From contig NZ_BMGA01000001.1 in assembly GCF_014639535.1 (NCBI RefSeq), positions 124,001-188,000 of the forward strand: 64,000 nucleotides of DNA, in the 5' to 3' direction. The notes beneath the pieces are model-generated. The model worked only from the letters and a program-made list of their open reading frames with translations, was not told where the DNA came from and searched no databases. The position numbers and the translations under genes are program-made. How positions within the stretch are numbered: the first letter of the stretch is position 1; every line of letters begins with the position of its first letter. This DNA is from Flavobacterium palustre. Its GTDB lineage: Bacteria > Bacteroidota > Bacteroidia > Flavobacteriales > Flavobacteriaceae. Shown in pieces: positions 18,343-58,044 of the stretch.

Positions 18343-18415
<73 letters not shown>

Positions 18416-18500: not shown

Positions 18501-18573
<73 letters not shown>

Positions 18574-53642: not shown

Positions 53643-53675
53643 AAAAAAAATCCCAAAACATAAAGTCTTAGGATT
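53643..53675 (-). terminator. Terminator of the Phe/Tyr operon
   Basis: Minus strand AATCCTAAGAC, 5-base loop, GTTTTGGGATT (53675-53649), an 11-base stem with two G-U pairs, followed by eight T. It lies 41 bases after the stop of the DAHP synthase gene. Confidence 0.85.
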
Positions 53676-53715
53676 TTATAAATTTAAATTATCGAGTTCT
53701 TAAATCACGAATCAA

Positions 53716-54795
53716 TTATCCGTTGATAATTTTTTCTTGGTGTTCGATACTTTCCTGGTGAATTGATTTGAACAATTTAGTGATAAATTCTTCTGACAAT
53801 CCTTTTTTAGCACCTTCAGCAACCATTTTCTCCTGGATTTCATTCCAACGGTTGTTTTGCAATACTGCAACATTGTTTTCTTTTTTCACCTGACCAATTT
53901 CATCAGCTACTTTCATTCTTTTTCCTAAAAGATCTAATAAGTTAGCATCCAAAACGTCGATATTGGTTCTTAATTTTGTCATTTTATTTTCAAAATCGCT
54001 ATCTCCACTCACTTTTCTTACTTTCAAATCTTTCAAGATTTGTTTCAAAGCATCTGGAGTAACTTGTTGAGCAGCATCAGACCAAGCGTTATCAGGATCA
54101 ATATGCGTTTCGATAATCATACCGTCATAGTTCAAATCTAAAGCTTCCTGAGTTACTTCAAGAATCATGTTACGGTTTCCTGTAATGTGAGACGGATCGA
54201 TGATTAATGGCAAATCAGGGAATTTGTTTTGCAATTCGATAGCAATTTGCCACTCAGGAATGTTTCTGTATTTAGTTTTCTCATAAGTAGAGAAACCTCT
54301 GTGAATAACTCCTAAGTTTTTGATTCCAGCCATGTGTAAACGCTCAACACCACCTAACCATAAAGCCATATCAGGGTTTACAGGGTTTTTAACCAAAACG
54401 ATTTTATCAGTTCCAGCCAATGTATCAGCAATTTCCTGAACTGCAAATGGATTAGCTGTTGTACGAGCTCCAACCCATAATACATCGATATCATATTCTA
54501 AAGCTAATTTACAGTGAGCTGCTGTAGCAACCTCAGTTCCCATCAACAATCCTGTTTCTTCTTTAGCTTTTTTCAACCATTTTAATCCTATTTCCCCAAT
54601 TCCTTCAAATCCTCCCGGACGAGTTCTTGGTTTCCAAATTCCTGCTCTGAATACGCTTACATCTGAATTTTTCAGTTCATGAGCAATTTTCAATACCTGC
54701 TCTTCAGTTTCAGCACTACAAGGTCCTGCAATCACAAATGGATGATTCAATTTGAAAGCATCCAACCAATTTCTCATTTCTTTGTTGTTTTCCAT
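53716..54795 (-). CDS. Bifunctional 3-deoxy-7-phosphoheptulonate synthase/chorismate mutase
   Basis: 359 residues. Residues 1-about 260 are a type I-beta DAHP synthase: FVIAGPCSAETEEQ, RAGIWKPRTRPGGFEGIG, GTEVATAAHCKLAL, LIIDPSHITGNRNM. Residues about 268-355 are an AroQ-type helical chorismate mutase (LRTNIDVLDANLLDLLGKRMKVADEIGQVKKEN). It makes the first committed intermediate of the shikimate route and also converts chorismate to prephenate. Neither pheA nor tyrA here has its own mutase, so this domain serves both branches. Last gene of the attenuated operon. Confidence 0.95.
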   Translation of the reverse strand: MENNKEMRNWLDAFKLNHPFVIAGPCSAETEEQVLKIAHELKNSDVSVFRAGIWKPRTRPGGFEGIGEIGLKWLKKAKEETGLLMGTEVATAAHCKLALEYDIDVLWVGARTTANPFAVQEIADTLAGTDKIVLVKNPVNPDMALWLGGVERLHMAGIKNLGVIHRGFSTYEKTKYRNIPEWQIAIELQNKFPDLPLIIDPSHITGNRNMILEVTQEALDLNYDGMIIETHIDPDNAWSDAAQQVTPDALKQILKDLKVRKVSGDSDFENKMTKLRTNIDVLDANLLDLLGKRMKVADEIGQVKKENNVAVLQNNRWNEIQEKMVAEGAKKGLSEEFITKLFKSIHQESIEHQEKIING

Positions 54796-54850: not shown

Positions 54851-55708
54851 CTATTTTTTAACGCCTATTCCGTTTAATATTTCTCTAATTTTATTGACAC
54901 TTGCCATTTCTTCGTAAATCGCATTGTAATCATCCTGCACCAATAAATCCCTAAACTGAGTTAGATTCGAAATATACTCTTCTAATGATTCTAAAACCTG
55001 AGCTTTATTCTGTTCAAAAATTGGCGTCCACATTGCCGGTGAACTTTTAGCCAAACGTACCGTGCTTTCAAATCCGGAACCCGCCATATCAAAAATATCC
55101 TGCTCGTCTTTTTCTTTATTTATCACCGTTTTTCCTAACATAAAGGAACTGATGTGCGATAAATGAGAAACATAAGCAATATGTTTATCATGTGATTTTG
55201 GATCCATATAACGAATACGCATTCCCATTTTATTGAAAACCTCTAATGCTTTTTCCTGTAATTTGAAAGCCGTTTTCTCTACTTCGCAAATGATATTTGT
55301 TTTTCCTCGAAACAAATCTCTCAACGCTGCCGAAGGTCCTGAAAATTCTGTTCCCGCAATAGGATGAGTGGCAATAAAATTTCTTCTTTTAGGATGATTA
55401 GCGATTGCCTGACAAATAGGATTTTTAGTTGAACCTACTTCAAAAACAATAGCATTATCACCAACCAAATCCAATACTTTAGGTAATAACCCAATAGCTA
55501 CATTTACAGGAACCGAAACAATTACAAAATCTGCCTCAGGCAAATCTTCCATTGTAGTGGCAACATCAATAACGCCTAACTCTAATGCCTGTTGCAAGTG
55601 TTTTTCGTTATTGTCTATTCCGTAAATAGTGGCATTCGGATACAGCGCTTTGATGTCTAAAACCATCGAACCACCTATTAAACCAATACCTATTACAAAT
55701 ACTTTCAT
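54851..55708 (-). CDS. tyrA: Prephenate dehydrogenase
   Basis: 285 residues. Rossmann NAD-binding start VFVIGIGLIGGSMVLDIKA, then VSVPVNVAIGLLP, VFEVGSTKNPICQAI and THPIAGTEFSGP, and a helical C-terminal domain with SHLSHISSFMLG. It oxidatively decarboxylates prephenate to 4-hydroxyphenylpyruvate, the tyrosine precursor. There is no ACT or mutase domain. Third gene of the operon. Confidence 0.94.
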   Translation of the reverse strand: MKVFVIGIGLIGGSMVLDIKALYPNATIYGIDNNEKHLQQALELGVIDVATTMEDLPEADFVIVSVPVNVAIGLLPKVLDLVGDNAIVFEVGSTKNPICQAIANHPKRRNFIATHPIAGTEFSGPSAALRDLFRGKTNIICEVEKTAFKLQEKALEVFNKMGMRIRYMDPKSHDKHIAYVSHLSHISSFMLGKTVINKEKDEQDIFDMAGSGFESTVRLAKSSPAMWTPIFEQNKAQVLESLEEYISNLTQFRDLLVQDDYNAIYEEMASVNKIREILNGIGVKK

Positions 55709-55784: not shown

Positions 55785-56930
55785 CTAAAATCGGCTTATT
55801 GCTTCCTGTACTTTTTCTTCTTTCACACATAATGCAAATCGAATATATCCTTCTCCGTTTGAACCGAAAATAGTTCCCGGTGCAATAAAAATATATTTCT
55901 CGTGCAATATCTGATCGATGAACTTCTCAGCCGATTGAATTCCTTCCGGCAATTTTGCCCAAACAAATAAACCTACTCCTTCTTTATAAACTTTACAGCC
56001 TAATTTTTCAGCCAATTGCTCGGTTAAAACGCGGCGTTTTTTATATATTTCATTCATGGAATCAAACCATGATTTATCACTTTTTAATGCTTCGATAGCG
56101 CCTTTTTGGATTCCAAAAAACATTCCGCTATCCATATTACTTTTCACTCTTAAAACAGCATCAATCAATTCAGCATTTCCGGAAACCATTCCTACTCTCC
56201 ATCCTGCCATGTTAAAAGTCTTGCTCAGAGAGTTCAATTCCAAAGCTACTTCTTTAGCTCCTTCCACCTGTAACAAACTCATCGGATTGTCATTCAAAAC
56301 AAAACTGTACGGATTGTCATTGACTAACAATATCTGATGTTTTTTGGCGAAAGCCACTAACTTTTCAAACAAAGCTAAACTTCCTCTGGCTCCTGTAGGC
56401 ATGTGCGGATAACCTATCCACATCAATTTCACTTTGGATAAATCTAATTTTTCTAAAGCCTCAAAATCAGGTTCCCAATTATTAGCTTCAGCCAAATCAT
56501 AATAAACTGCTTCTGCTCCAACTAAATTCGTTACCGAAGTATACGTTGGATAACCCGGATTAGGAATTAAAACCTGATCTCCTTCATTCAAAAATGCCAT
56601 TGAAATATGCATGATTCCTTCTTTCGAACCCATCAAAGGCAAAATCTCCGTATTTGGATTTAACTCTACCTGAAAATTGTTCTGATAAAAATCAGCCATG
56701 CTTTTTCGCAACTCAGGCAATCCCTGATAACTTTGATAACCATGTGCATTTACATCCTGCATAGCTAAAGCAACCGCGTCAATCACAGCCTGTGCCGGAG
56801 CCAAATCAGGGCTTCCAATCCCCATATTGATAATAGGCTTACCTTCTGCTGCCAATTGTCTTACCTCTCTCAATTTTGATGAGAAGTAGTATTCTTCAAC
56901 TGTATTTAATCTGTTTGCTGTTGTAATCAT
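55785..56930 (-). CDS. Aminotransferase class I/II (aromatic amino acid operon)
   Basis: 381 residues, PLP fold type I. INMGIGSPDLAPA, HGYQSYQGLPELRKSMADFY, MGSKEGIMHIS, NPGYPTY, VNDNPYSFVLN, PLP lysine in ELNSLSKTFNMAGWRVGM and a final YIRFALC. Its place between pheA and tyrA suggests the transamination of phenylpyruvate and 4-hydroxyphenylpyruvate, or of prephenate. Sequence alone also allows other substrates such as diaminopimelate-type acceptors. Confidence 0.9.
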   Translation of the reverse strand: MITTANRLNTVEEYYFSSKLREVRQLAAEGKPIINMGIGSPDLAPAQAVIDAVALAMQDVNAHGYQSYQGLPELRKSMADFYQNNFQVELNPNTEILPLMGSKEGIMHISMAFLNEGDQVLIPNPGYPTYTSVTNLVGAEAVYYDLAEANNWEPDFEALEKLDLSKVKLMWIGYPHMPTGARGSLALFEKLVAFAKKHQILLVNDNPYSFVLNDNPMSLLQVEGAKEVALELNSLSKTFNMAGWRVGMVSGNAELIDAVLRVKSNMDSGMFFGIQKGAIEALKSDKSWFDSMNEIYKKRRVLTEQLAEKLGCKVYKEGVGLFVWAKLPEGIQSAEKFIDQILHEKYIFIAPGTIFGSNGEGYIRFALCVKEEKVQEAISRF

Positions 56931-56988: not shown

Positions 56989-57825
56989 TTAAATCAAACT
57001 AGGTTTTGTATTGGTATACTCGCCTAACACTTTAAAATATTCTGCCATAATCTCTAACAAAGATTTCGCTTTTGCATAATCTTCATATTTTTCGAAAGTA
57101 ACATCAACAAAAAAAGAATATTTCCAGGGCGTTTCTATTTTTGGCAACGATTGAATTTTAGTCAAATTCATTTTACAATCGCTCATTACATTCAAAACTG
57201 CCGCCAAACTTCCGCGTTTGTGATCCAATTCAAATTTTAAAGAAGCTCTGTTTATCTCTTCTTCCGAAACAAATGAATTCTCCTTTTGAATAATCACAAA
57301 ACGGGTCATATTGTTTTTAATCGTTTGGATTTCGGGAGCCAGAATTTCCAAATCATACATTTCTGCCGCTGTTTTACTCGCAATTGCAGCAATACCTGTT
57401 AATTGTTTCTCCTGAATTCTTCTTGCTGTTTCAGCCGTATCCTTATCTTCTACTAATTTAATATGCGGGTATTTTTTCAAAAAATCCATACACTGCAACA
57501 AAGCCATCGGATGCGAATATACTTCGGTAATATCTTCAATCTTCTGACCTCTTAAAGCCATCAGGTTTTGATGAATACTTAAATAATGTTCCCCAATAAT
57601 GTGCAATTTATTCTTATCAATCAAAGCATAATTAGGAATAATAGGACCTGCAATAGAATTCTCGATAGCCATTACCGCCTGAGTTGACTTCCCAGACAAA
57701 AGACTATCTACTAATTCCTCAAAAGACATACATTCATCAACAACTACCTGCTGACCATAATACTCCTGAGCCACCTGATGGTGAAAAGAACCTATTATAC
57801 CTTGTATTGCAATTTTTGCTTCCAT
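56989..57825 (-). CDS. pheA: Prephenate dehydratase, monofunctional
   Basis: 278 residues. Periplasmic-binding-like catalytic domain with IQGIIGSFHHQVAQEYYG, AVMAIENSIAGPI and the catalytic TRF in NNMTRFVII, then an ACT domain (about 190-270). The ACT motif usually read as ESRP reads QSLP here, so phenylalanine feedback may differ. It converts prephenate to phenylpyruvate. No chorismate mutase domain. First gene after the attenuator; the ATG lies six bases after the U tract of the leader terminator. Confidence 0.95.
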   Translation of the reverse strand: MEAKIAIQGIIGSFHHQVAQEYYGQQVVVDECMSFEELVDSLLSGKSTQAVMAIENSIAGPIIPNYALIDKNKLHIIGEHYLSIHQNLMALRGQKIEDITEVYSHPMALLQCMDFLKKYPHIKLVEDKDTAETARRIQEKQLTGIAAIASKTAAEMYDLEILAPEIQTIKNNMTRFVIIQKENSFVSEEEINRASLKFELDHKRGSLAAVLNVMSDCKMNLTKIQSLPKIETPWKYSFFVDVTFEKYEDYAKAKSLLEIMAEYFKVLGEYTNTKPSLI

Positions 57826-57831
57826 TTATTC

Positions 57832-57860
57832 AAAAAAAAATCCTGATTTTCATCAGGATT
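57832..57860 (-). terminator. Attenuator terminator in the pheA leader
   Basis: Minus strand AATCCTGAT, loop GAAA, ATCAGGATT (57860-57839), a perfect nine-base stem running into nine T (57840-57832). The stop of transcription would fall just before the pheA start codon. The left arm can pair instead with the sequence after the leader-peptide stop codon. Confidence 0.9.
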
Positions 57861-57913
57861 GTATATTAGTTTTATTTGTTTATTTATTTTTCAAATTACC
57901 ATAGCACAATCCT
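57855..57913 (-). promoter_or_regulatory. Antiterminator pair of the pheA leader
   Basis: On the minus strand AGGATTGT (57913-57906), which begins at the last A of the leader stop codon, is the exact complement of ACAATCCT (57862-57855), which overlaps the 5' arm of the terminator. A ribosome stalled at Phe/Tyr codons would leave the first segment free to pair and prevent the terminator; a ribosome at the stop codon would cover it. Confidence 0.8.
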
Positions 57914-57969
57914 TATCTCTCGCTAAAGAAATAAAAAGAAAAGCTAAAATAGAAACGGTTATTTGACAT
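57913..57969 (-). CDS. Phe/Tyr leader peptide of the aromatic amino acid operon
   Basis: An 18-codon frame, ATG at 57969 to TAA at 57913-57915, encodes MSNNRFYFSFSFYFFSER: six Phe and two Tyr in ten consecutive residues (6-15), with serines between. The composition matches the end products of the genes downstream, as in pheL or pheST leaders of enteric bacteria. It lies about 38 bases after the predicted transcription start and is followed by antiterminator and terminator sequences. As usual in this phylum there is no obvious Shine-Dalgarno site. Confidence 0.88.
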   Translation of the reverse strand: MSNNRFYFSFSFYFFSER

Positions 57970-58013
57970 CTTAATTAAATATTATTCTCTCGAATGATTA
58001 TTTTTAACGCTGG

Positions 58014-58044
58014 CAAATATATAACATATTTCCAACAACACAAA
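58014..58044 (-). promoter_or_regulatory. Promoter of the Phe/Tyr operon
   Basis: Minus strand TTTG (58044-58041), 19-base spacer, TATATTTG (58021-58014), the full consensus. Transcription would start near 58007, giving a leader of about 180 bases before pheA. Confidence 0.85.

Follow-up and report, generated by a model that had tools for sequence, protein, structure and literature searches.

A probable ribosome-mediated Phe/Tyr attenuator upstream of the pheA operon of Flavobacterium palustre and its counterparts in the Bacteroidota

Introduction

The leader that precedes pheA in Flavobacterium palustre is very probably a ribosome-mediated attenuator of the trp/phe-leader type, which senses charged tRNA-Phe and tRNA-Tyr. 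It lies within a stretch of 64,000 nucleotides that was analysed as a whole, hereafter the window, to which our coordinates refer. The locus combines an aromatic-rich frame, presumably translated, ahead of a Phe/Tyr operon with an intrinsic terminator and an antiterminator that shares the 5' arm of that terminator, as is characteristic of leader-peptide attenuators. Attenuation had been proposed for this leader in an earlier reading made from the letters of the window alone (the sequence-only reading), and the persistence and co-variation of the parts across relatives support it. The leader points to a Phe/Tyr sensor as what controls the aromatic pathway.

The device is known in kind and has already been pointed out in Flavobacterium. 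A transcriptome study of F. psychrophilum (ISME Commun 2021, PMC9723704) reports a conserved structured element 5' of pheA that is also present in other Flavobacteriaceae genera and has no Rfam hit, together with clues for leader-peptide attenuation ahead of amino-acid operons, the elements being listed in its Table S7. The statement in the sequence-only reading that no experimental work was known on such a leader in Flavobacterium is amended here, since that study already names both the pheA 5' element and the clues for attenuation. The F. psychrophilum element and the F. palustre leader share genus and gene; for the element, the accessible parts of the study describe neither a sequence anatomy nor a geometry and mention no co-variation, tandem forms or occurrence outside the family. 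What is added here is a strong and broad comparative basis, the geometry, a link between the unit and the front of the operon, and a serial doubled form in other families; for the wide reach, the geometry and the serial double units we found no earlier description in the open-access literature.

Related proposals are more distant. Bacteroid-trp RNA (RF01692) is a candidate cis-regulatory RNA in Bacteroidetes (Weinberg 2010, PMC2864571), whose name ties it to tryptophan genes; the operon is a different one, and no match to it was obtained in the window, in a permissive search or in the loci of 20 relatives. Short frames reminiscent of leader peptides are mentioned for B. thetaiotaomicron in the accessible text of PMC7366714, the available sections of an account of his genes in the superphylum describe attenuation for enterobacteria only (PMC8305728), and the terms attenuation, leader peptide and pheA do not occur in the text of a paper on protein synthesis in F. 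johnsoniae (PMC6847099). Predictions for Bacteroidetes may be included in a comparative survey of bacterial attenuation (Lopatovskaya 2010, doi 10.1134/S0026893310010164, as cited in PMC4833913). The open-access literature yielded nothing closer on leader-peptide attenuation in Bacteroidetes/Bacteroidota or on tandem attenuators.

Anatomy of the leader

The features of the leader are as follows; the promoter elements, the frame, its sensing core, the terminator hairpin and the T run were read directly from the sequence.

58118 to 57825: gap holding the leader, the 292-base intergenic region between the start of gldA (58118, plus strand) and the start of pheA (57825, minus strand)
58041..58044, minus strand: -33 promoter element TTTG, 19 bases ahead of TATATTTG
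58014..58021, minus strand: -7 promoter element TATATTTG (TAnnTTTG)
57913..57969, minus strand: leader frame MSNNRFYFSFSFYFFSER*, 18 codons and TAA
57925..57954, minus strand: sensing core (residues 6-15), ten codons with six Phe and two Tyr
57910..57937, minus strand: possible 1:2 hairpin with 12 predicted pairs, joining the aromatic codons (57937-57926) to the region 2 side (57921-57910)
57905..57913, minus strand: region 2, AGGATTGTG, its first base being the last base of the TAA stop
57855..57863, minus strand: region 3, TACAATCCT, partner of region 2 (antiterminator) or, from 57860, of region 4
57839..57860, minus strand: terminator hairpin 3:4, AATCCTGAT-GAAA-ATCAGGATT
57832..57840, minus strand: run of nine T, where an attenuated transcript would be expected to end

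The promoter, the 18-codon frame with six Phe and two Tyr within ten residues, and an 8-base segment at the stop codon that complements the 5' arm of the hairpin had all been described in the sequence-only reading, and each is present on the minus strand as described: TTTG-N19-TATATTTG agrees with the Bacteroidota -33/-7 consensus used for comparison (PMC7366714), the frame and its core stand at 57969-57913 and 57954-57925, and the segment of region 2 at 57913-57906, AGGATTGT, is the exact complement of ACAATCCT at 57862-57855, a match that a G-U pair lengthens to nine. Transcription would be expected to start near 58007. An A-rich spacer separates region 2 from region 3 and is followed by TACAATCCTGAT, GAAA, ATCAGGA, nine T, six bases (GAATAA) and the ATG of pheA at 57825. 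The hairpin and T run ending six bases from pheA were likewise found as described, but nine pairs and nine U cannot be taken as separate counts because two U are shared; the structure has either nine pairs and seven free U or seven pairs and nine U.

Chance and folding controls

As a null model, the 292-base intergenic region was shuffled 2000 times with its dinucleotide composition preserved. One shuffle contained a frame reaching 8 F/Y in 10 residues and three contained a hairpin scoring at least 20 (the real hairpin scores 21), and the complete unit occurred in none of the 2000. When the window was scanned on both strands in overlapping 600-base tiles, with thresholds set slightly under the real scores, the pheA leader was the only unit detected. 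The segment spanning regions 2, 3 and 4 folds with a z-score of -3.77 (0 of 200 shuffles equally good) and the whole leader with -2.23 (4 of 200 shuffles). Despite its 12 predicted pairs, the 1:2 hairpin, which corresponds to the pause/protector hairpin of the textbook model, is no more stable than shuffled sequence (z = -0.28); such a hairpin is strongly predicted at 91% of the genus loci, 35% of the family loci and 43% of the loci in a further family, f5.

The operon behind the leader

The leader is followed by a four-gene operon, whose names, apart from that of tyrA, rest on best matches below the curated NCBIfam cut-offs.

56989..57825, minus strand: pheA, encoding prephenate dehydratase and opening the operon; top NCBIfam match PRK11898 at 196.7 bits, short of the curated cut-off of 219
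55785..56930, minus strand: aminotransferase, LL-DAP aminotransferase-like; every match shown is below the curated cut-off
54851..55708, minus strand: tyrA, prephenate dehydrogenase; 391 bits, which exceeds the curated cut-off
53716..54795, minus strand: DAHP synthase-chorismate mutase fusion; matches below the curated cut-offs
53648..53676, minus strand: strong terminator closing the four-gene operon

The aminotransferase would serve in Phe/Tyr transamination. A genome-wide search with PF00793 returned two genes, the DAHP synthase of the operon and a second that is a KDO-8-phosphate synthase (L278; 376 bits, cut-off 242), and no PF01474 gene was found in a genome-wide search, so the DAHP synthase of the operon is the only one detected and appears to be the sole enzyme of this type in the genome. 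With this enzyme behind a Phe/Tyr sensor, the supply of tryptophan would depend on the sensor too. The gene order pheA-aminotransferase-tyrA-DAHP synthase was kept in all 60 family loci checked.

The arrangement resembles the pheL/pheA attenuator of Enterobacteria (RF01859, Phe_leader), in which a Phe-rich leader and competing terminator and antiterminator structures likewise control a gene of the prephenate pathway. Unlike pheL/pheA, the F. palustre leader would read Phe and Tyr together, is preceded by a Bacteroidota promoter and stands before an operon that includes tyrA and DAHP synthase. The RF01859 model scores the leader at 21.8 bits (E 0.27) against a gathering score of 55, with AT-rich stretches nearby reaching 16.8-16.9.

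A terminator and an alternative pairing are also what T-box and riboswitch systems possess, and the terminator could in principle be governed by an RNA that binds tRNA or a metabolite, with the short frame incidental. The only Rfam families that reached their gathering scores in the window were two tRNA genes elsewhere, none did so in the loci of 20 relatives, and a permissive search (E up to 10) gave 17 weak matches without a T-box or riboswitch among them. The aromatic frame and its distance to region 2 are, moreover, kept among relatives in which the remainder changes, and we consider an RNA sensor of this type extremely improbable. The two tRNA genes just mentioned are adjacent, have equal scores and lie on the minus strand at 18343-18415 and 18501-18573 of the window.

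Distribution in the genus and family

Searches for pheA gave matches in 83 of 121 genomes of the genus and 226 of 249 genomes of the family, and the loci examined comprised the 83 from the genus and 88 from the family. An aromatic-rich core followed by a terminator was present at 79 of the 83 genus loci and all 88 family loci (167 of 171 together), the family frequency being a biased estimate because these loci were picked as the better-scoring 88 of the 226 matches. In a set of 80 named Flavobacterium records that overlaps the genus set, the unit was found in 79, and the one miss has just 37 bases upstream. In two of the four genus misses (L006 and L056) the contig ends within the locus, with the terminator still visible; the other two (L081 and L082) have a divergent pheA (48% and 42% identity), with the other operon genes absent in the 1.7 kb fetched downstream. 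Several upstream F/Y/W-rich frames in AT-rich Flavobacterium passed the density filter and failed the unit filter.

The frame MSNNRFYFSFSFYFFSER is identical in F. pokkalii (L172) and F. glycines (L173), and the laboratory species F. johnsoniae carries a unit upstream of pheA (L216) with frame MAANRFYFSNNFYFFFSRSQDCAMVI, region 2 GTCAGGATTGTG and region 3 TACAATCCTGAT. Other relatives have variants such as MSNNRFYFSNSFYFFFSRSEDCAMVI, MTNTYFWNGFYFYFFFGRGTGLF and MKTTTYTYYNWNYFFFNKRNETLYV: Phe and Tyr exchange for one another and the flanks differ between clades around a constant aromatic core. Nascent peptides can stall ribosomes, and a leader frame with a terminator would also suit a TnaC-like device in which the aromatic-rich peptide arrests the ribosome in response to free Phe/Tyr instead of tRNA charging. 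Variation in the peptide, with the class of codon kept, fits the reading of codons and does not fit a specific stalling peptide, and we regard a TnaC-like device as very unlikely, if somewhat less so than an RNA sensor.

Bacteroidota are known for translation initiation without Shine-Dalgarno pairing. The leaders start in A-rich contexts, and 191 of the 273 rows compiled across groups (see below) have an A at position -3. Trp codons also occur in many family leaders (68 of 94 family rows, L084-L171 and six more), perhaps because the operon also feeds Trp synthesis.

Co-variation and geometry of regions 2, 3 and 4

At the 167 genus and family loci the best 2:3 helix has a mean score of 18.7, against 9.2 when the spacer is shuffled; taken individually, the pairing reaches p<=0.01 at 105 loci and p<=0.05 at 141, with p>0.05 at 26. 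Because the helix is chosen as the best pairing, the percentage of paired 2:3 positions (100%) is circular, and it is the shuffle and swap controls alone that carry weight. For the swap control we took one locus per distinct terminator arm from all groups, giving 78 arms. The mean 2:3 score was 19.2 for a locus's own regions, 13.6 between different loci and 12.3 after shuffling, and scores of at least 15 were reached in 95%, 32% and 17% of cases, respectively; the score between loci is not low because arms of the GGGAC type are common to many clades.

The wider compilation of 273 rows includes thirteen extra genus and six extra family loci and leaves out the class loci L322, L332 and L333, whose genomes recur in the sets from families f9 and f5 described below; six rows were unusable for co-variation. 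The 267 usable loci contain 45 different region 3 5-mers, with which regions 2 and 4 change along, as in the sets CGGGACT/AGTCCCG/CGGGACT and GCCGGG/CCCGGC/GCCGGG and in the GGGATT and CGAGAC types, and 3:4 is paired in 1784 of 1792 cells. Alignment of the leader with the regions upstream of pheA in other genomes had been put forward in the sequence-only reading as the way to check it. The comparison bears it out: in related genomes the terminator and the 2:3 pairing are retained along with the aromatic codons, and all three change in concert.

Distances were taken from 266 of the 273 rows, seven with a pairing score below 14 being excluded. The end of the aromatic core lies 7-14 nt from the start of region 2 in 251 of the 266 rows, the start of region 2 falls between -31 and +5, counted from the last base of the stop codon, in 259 (with -46 and +16 as the extremes), and the stop and the terminator are at least 17 nt apart in 264. 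For the downstream reach of the ribosome we used a value of up to 12 nt (PMC4833913). These distances fit attenuation: region 2 would be just free under a stall, and covered or split from region 3 with a ribosome at the stop. Ribosome footprint sizes are otherwise general knowledge, and judged by them the geometry of the aligned leaders appears to satisfy the demands of a stalled ribosome, of a ribosome at the stop and of downstream reach.

Proposed mechanism

Sequence and comparison establish the parts and where they lie, the mutually exclusive pairings with their co-varying sequence, and the link to the operon. They suggest the following course of events, in which leader translation, ribosome stalling, termination and dependence on tRNA charging are presumed steps. 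RNA polymerase would start near 58007, with a ribosome meanwhile translating the 18-codon frame. A shortage of charged tRNA-Phe or tRNA-Tyr would make the ribosome stall within the aromatic core. Starting about 10 nt past the final aromatic codon, where the stalled ribosome would end, region 2 would stay accessible and could pair with region 3, so that the terminator is blocked and transcription reads through into pheA, the aminotransferase gene, tyrA and the DAHP synthase/chorismate mutase gene. When both tRNAs are charged, the ribosome would get to the stop codon and cover region 2 or, in relatives in which the stop is further on, sit between regions 2 and 3. In either case 3:4 would form and transcription would end near 57832.

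Ribosome-mediated attenuation requires a ribosome close behind RNA polymerase. To our knowledge, transcription-translation coupling has been little tested in Bacteroidota, and in a genus amenable to genetics a conserved attenuator could serve as a direct reporter for it.

More distant relatives and exceptions

A pheA match was present in 258 of 296 genomes of the phylum, from which we examined 40 better-scoring, mostly more distant loci (one of them, L316, being a family member) and ten deeper-branching ones. Two detectors were used. The first requires a compact terminator and missed L327, which has an interrupted stem, and L317; the second allows longer loops and in its strict form needs an ATG and a pairing score of 12, thereby losing L326 (no ATG; found by the first detector) and L358 and L366 (score below 12; found in a looser listing). 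With the detectors combined, a unit precedes pheA at 33 of the 40 loci (31 by the first, 32 by the second), compared with 0 or 1 of about 300 shuffled upstream regions per group. The 2:3 pairing reaches p<=0.05 at 25 of the 31 first-detector loci and is not significant at six, including L314 and L328. These two, with pairing at chance level, belong with L313, L317 and L318 to genomes of the same phylum and another class; the unit of L317 is weak (6 of 10 aromatic, about 640 bases before the pheA match, the open frame of which has 719 aa).

Gene order varies more among the 40 loci: the full order pheA-aminotransferase-tyrA-DAHP synthase is found at 18 of them and parts of it at the remainder. 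In four loci (L301-L304) pheA stands behind other genes, and the unit is located 3.6-4.0 kb upstream of pheA, shortly before a DAHP synthase gene whose product has 47-49% identity to that of the F. palustre operon; the frames (e.g., MLITAAIYFTFFYFYFRSQSRIGAVYCLAKN) are accompanied by an 8- or 9-base 2:3 match. Since the unit precedes the upstream DAHP synthase gene where the operon starts otherwise, it is linked to the front of the operon and not to pheA alone.

The same four loci bear on whether the leader might be a stand-alone gene for a small RNA or small protein, with pheA driven from elsewhere. A terminator could close such an independent transcript, and many small RNAs are reported for F. 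psychrophilum (PMC9723704). Against this, the unit precedes a different first gene in the four loci, the six bases between the T run and pheA would not accommodate a promoter, and the complementarity of regions 2 and 3 would be left without a role. An independent gene has, in our judgement, next to no likelihood as an explanation, and we retain ribosome-mediated attenuation.

Two observations concern the DAHP synthase genes themselves. The genome of L303 has a second one further upstream, and L403 has two in tandem (matches 5014-3992 and 3557-2493, minus strand) with an attenuator unit between them.

An operon of this kind lacking the leader had been named in the sequence-only reading as evidence that would speak against it. 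One real exception of this sort was found, L395 of family f5, which has pheA-aminotransferase-tyrA and no detected unit. The other misses differ: L006 and L056 end with their contigs, as noted above, and L081, L082 and L338-L340 show none of the other operon genes in the stretch retrieved, which for L338, L339 and L340 is the 3.7 kb after pheA. L394 likewise lacks both a unit and the operon around its pheA, and no unit was found in about 1 kb upstream of each of the ten deeper-branching loci (L411-L420). In two f5 genomes (L334 and L336), Cys codons occur among the aromatic codons of the leader (TCFCFFFYFY).

Serial double units in two other families

We surveyed 30 of the 46 f9 genomes and 30 of the 38 f5 genomes with a match for tandem units. 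Two units stand in series before pheA at 9 of the 30 f9 loci and 14 of the 30 f5 loci (L342, L347, L350, L351, L353-L357, L371, L372, L374-L380, L383-L385, L396 and L398), with 10-44 nt from the first terminator to the second ATG. L332, from the same genome as L371, was counted once, and L373, a false tandem in which the second frame overlaps the first terminator, was dropped before the count of 14. A looser listing adds L341/L333 and L352/L322, bringing f9 to 11 of 30; in L333, for example, MLQTRFFFGYYYFYAAA and a terminator are followed by MVPTQQVFFTYGYYFFYLKKPARCCQC and another terminator. Tandem units were found at none of the 83 genus or 88 family loci.

At 12 of the 23 tandem loci the cross-unit 2:3 pairing is at least as strong as the weaker own pairing, and some first-unit 2:3 pairings are weak (12-14), so interplay between the units is possible. 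On these comparisons it is likely that the Bacteroidota have a wide set of classical attenuators and that two families have doubled theirs in series, each unit with a candidate region 2, region 3 and terminator, which would amount to two Phe/Tyr checks. A doubled attenuator, if true, would make the response steeper, AND-type or wider in range. We know of no other leader-peptide attenuator pair of this serial kind.

Leaders of other amino-acid operons in F. palustre

Two further leaders were seen in the F. palustre genome. Upstream of hisG (L300 1172-1290; contig C2, about 208 kb), a His leader, MLSNQLHHHHLHYCSQAMC, is followed by a region 2, CTCAAGCG, that pairs with the terminator arm CGTTTGAG; from its sequence this is likely a second attenuator. 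Upstream of trpE (L421 1292-1400; contig C3, about 348.8 kb), the leader MITNNTWWWNNLRQ precedes a strong terminator, and region 2 is weaker (score 12); this is likely a Trp attenuator. Counting these two leaders and the pheA unit, the genome probably has three or more elements of this type.
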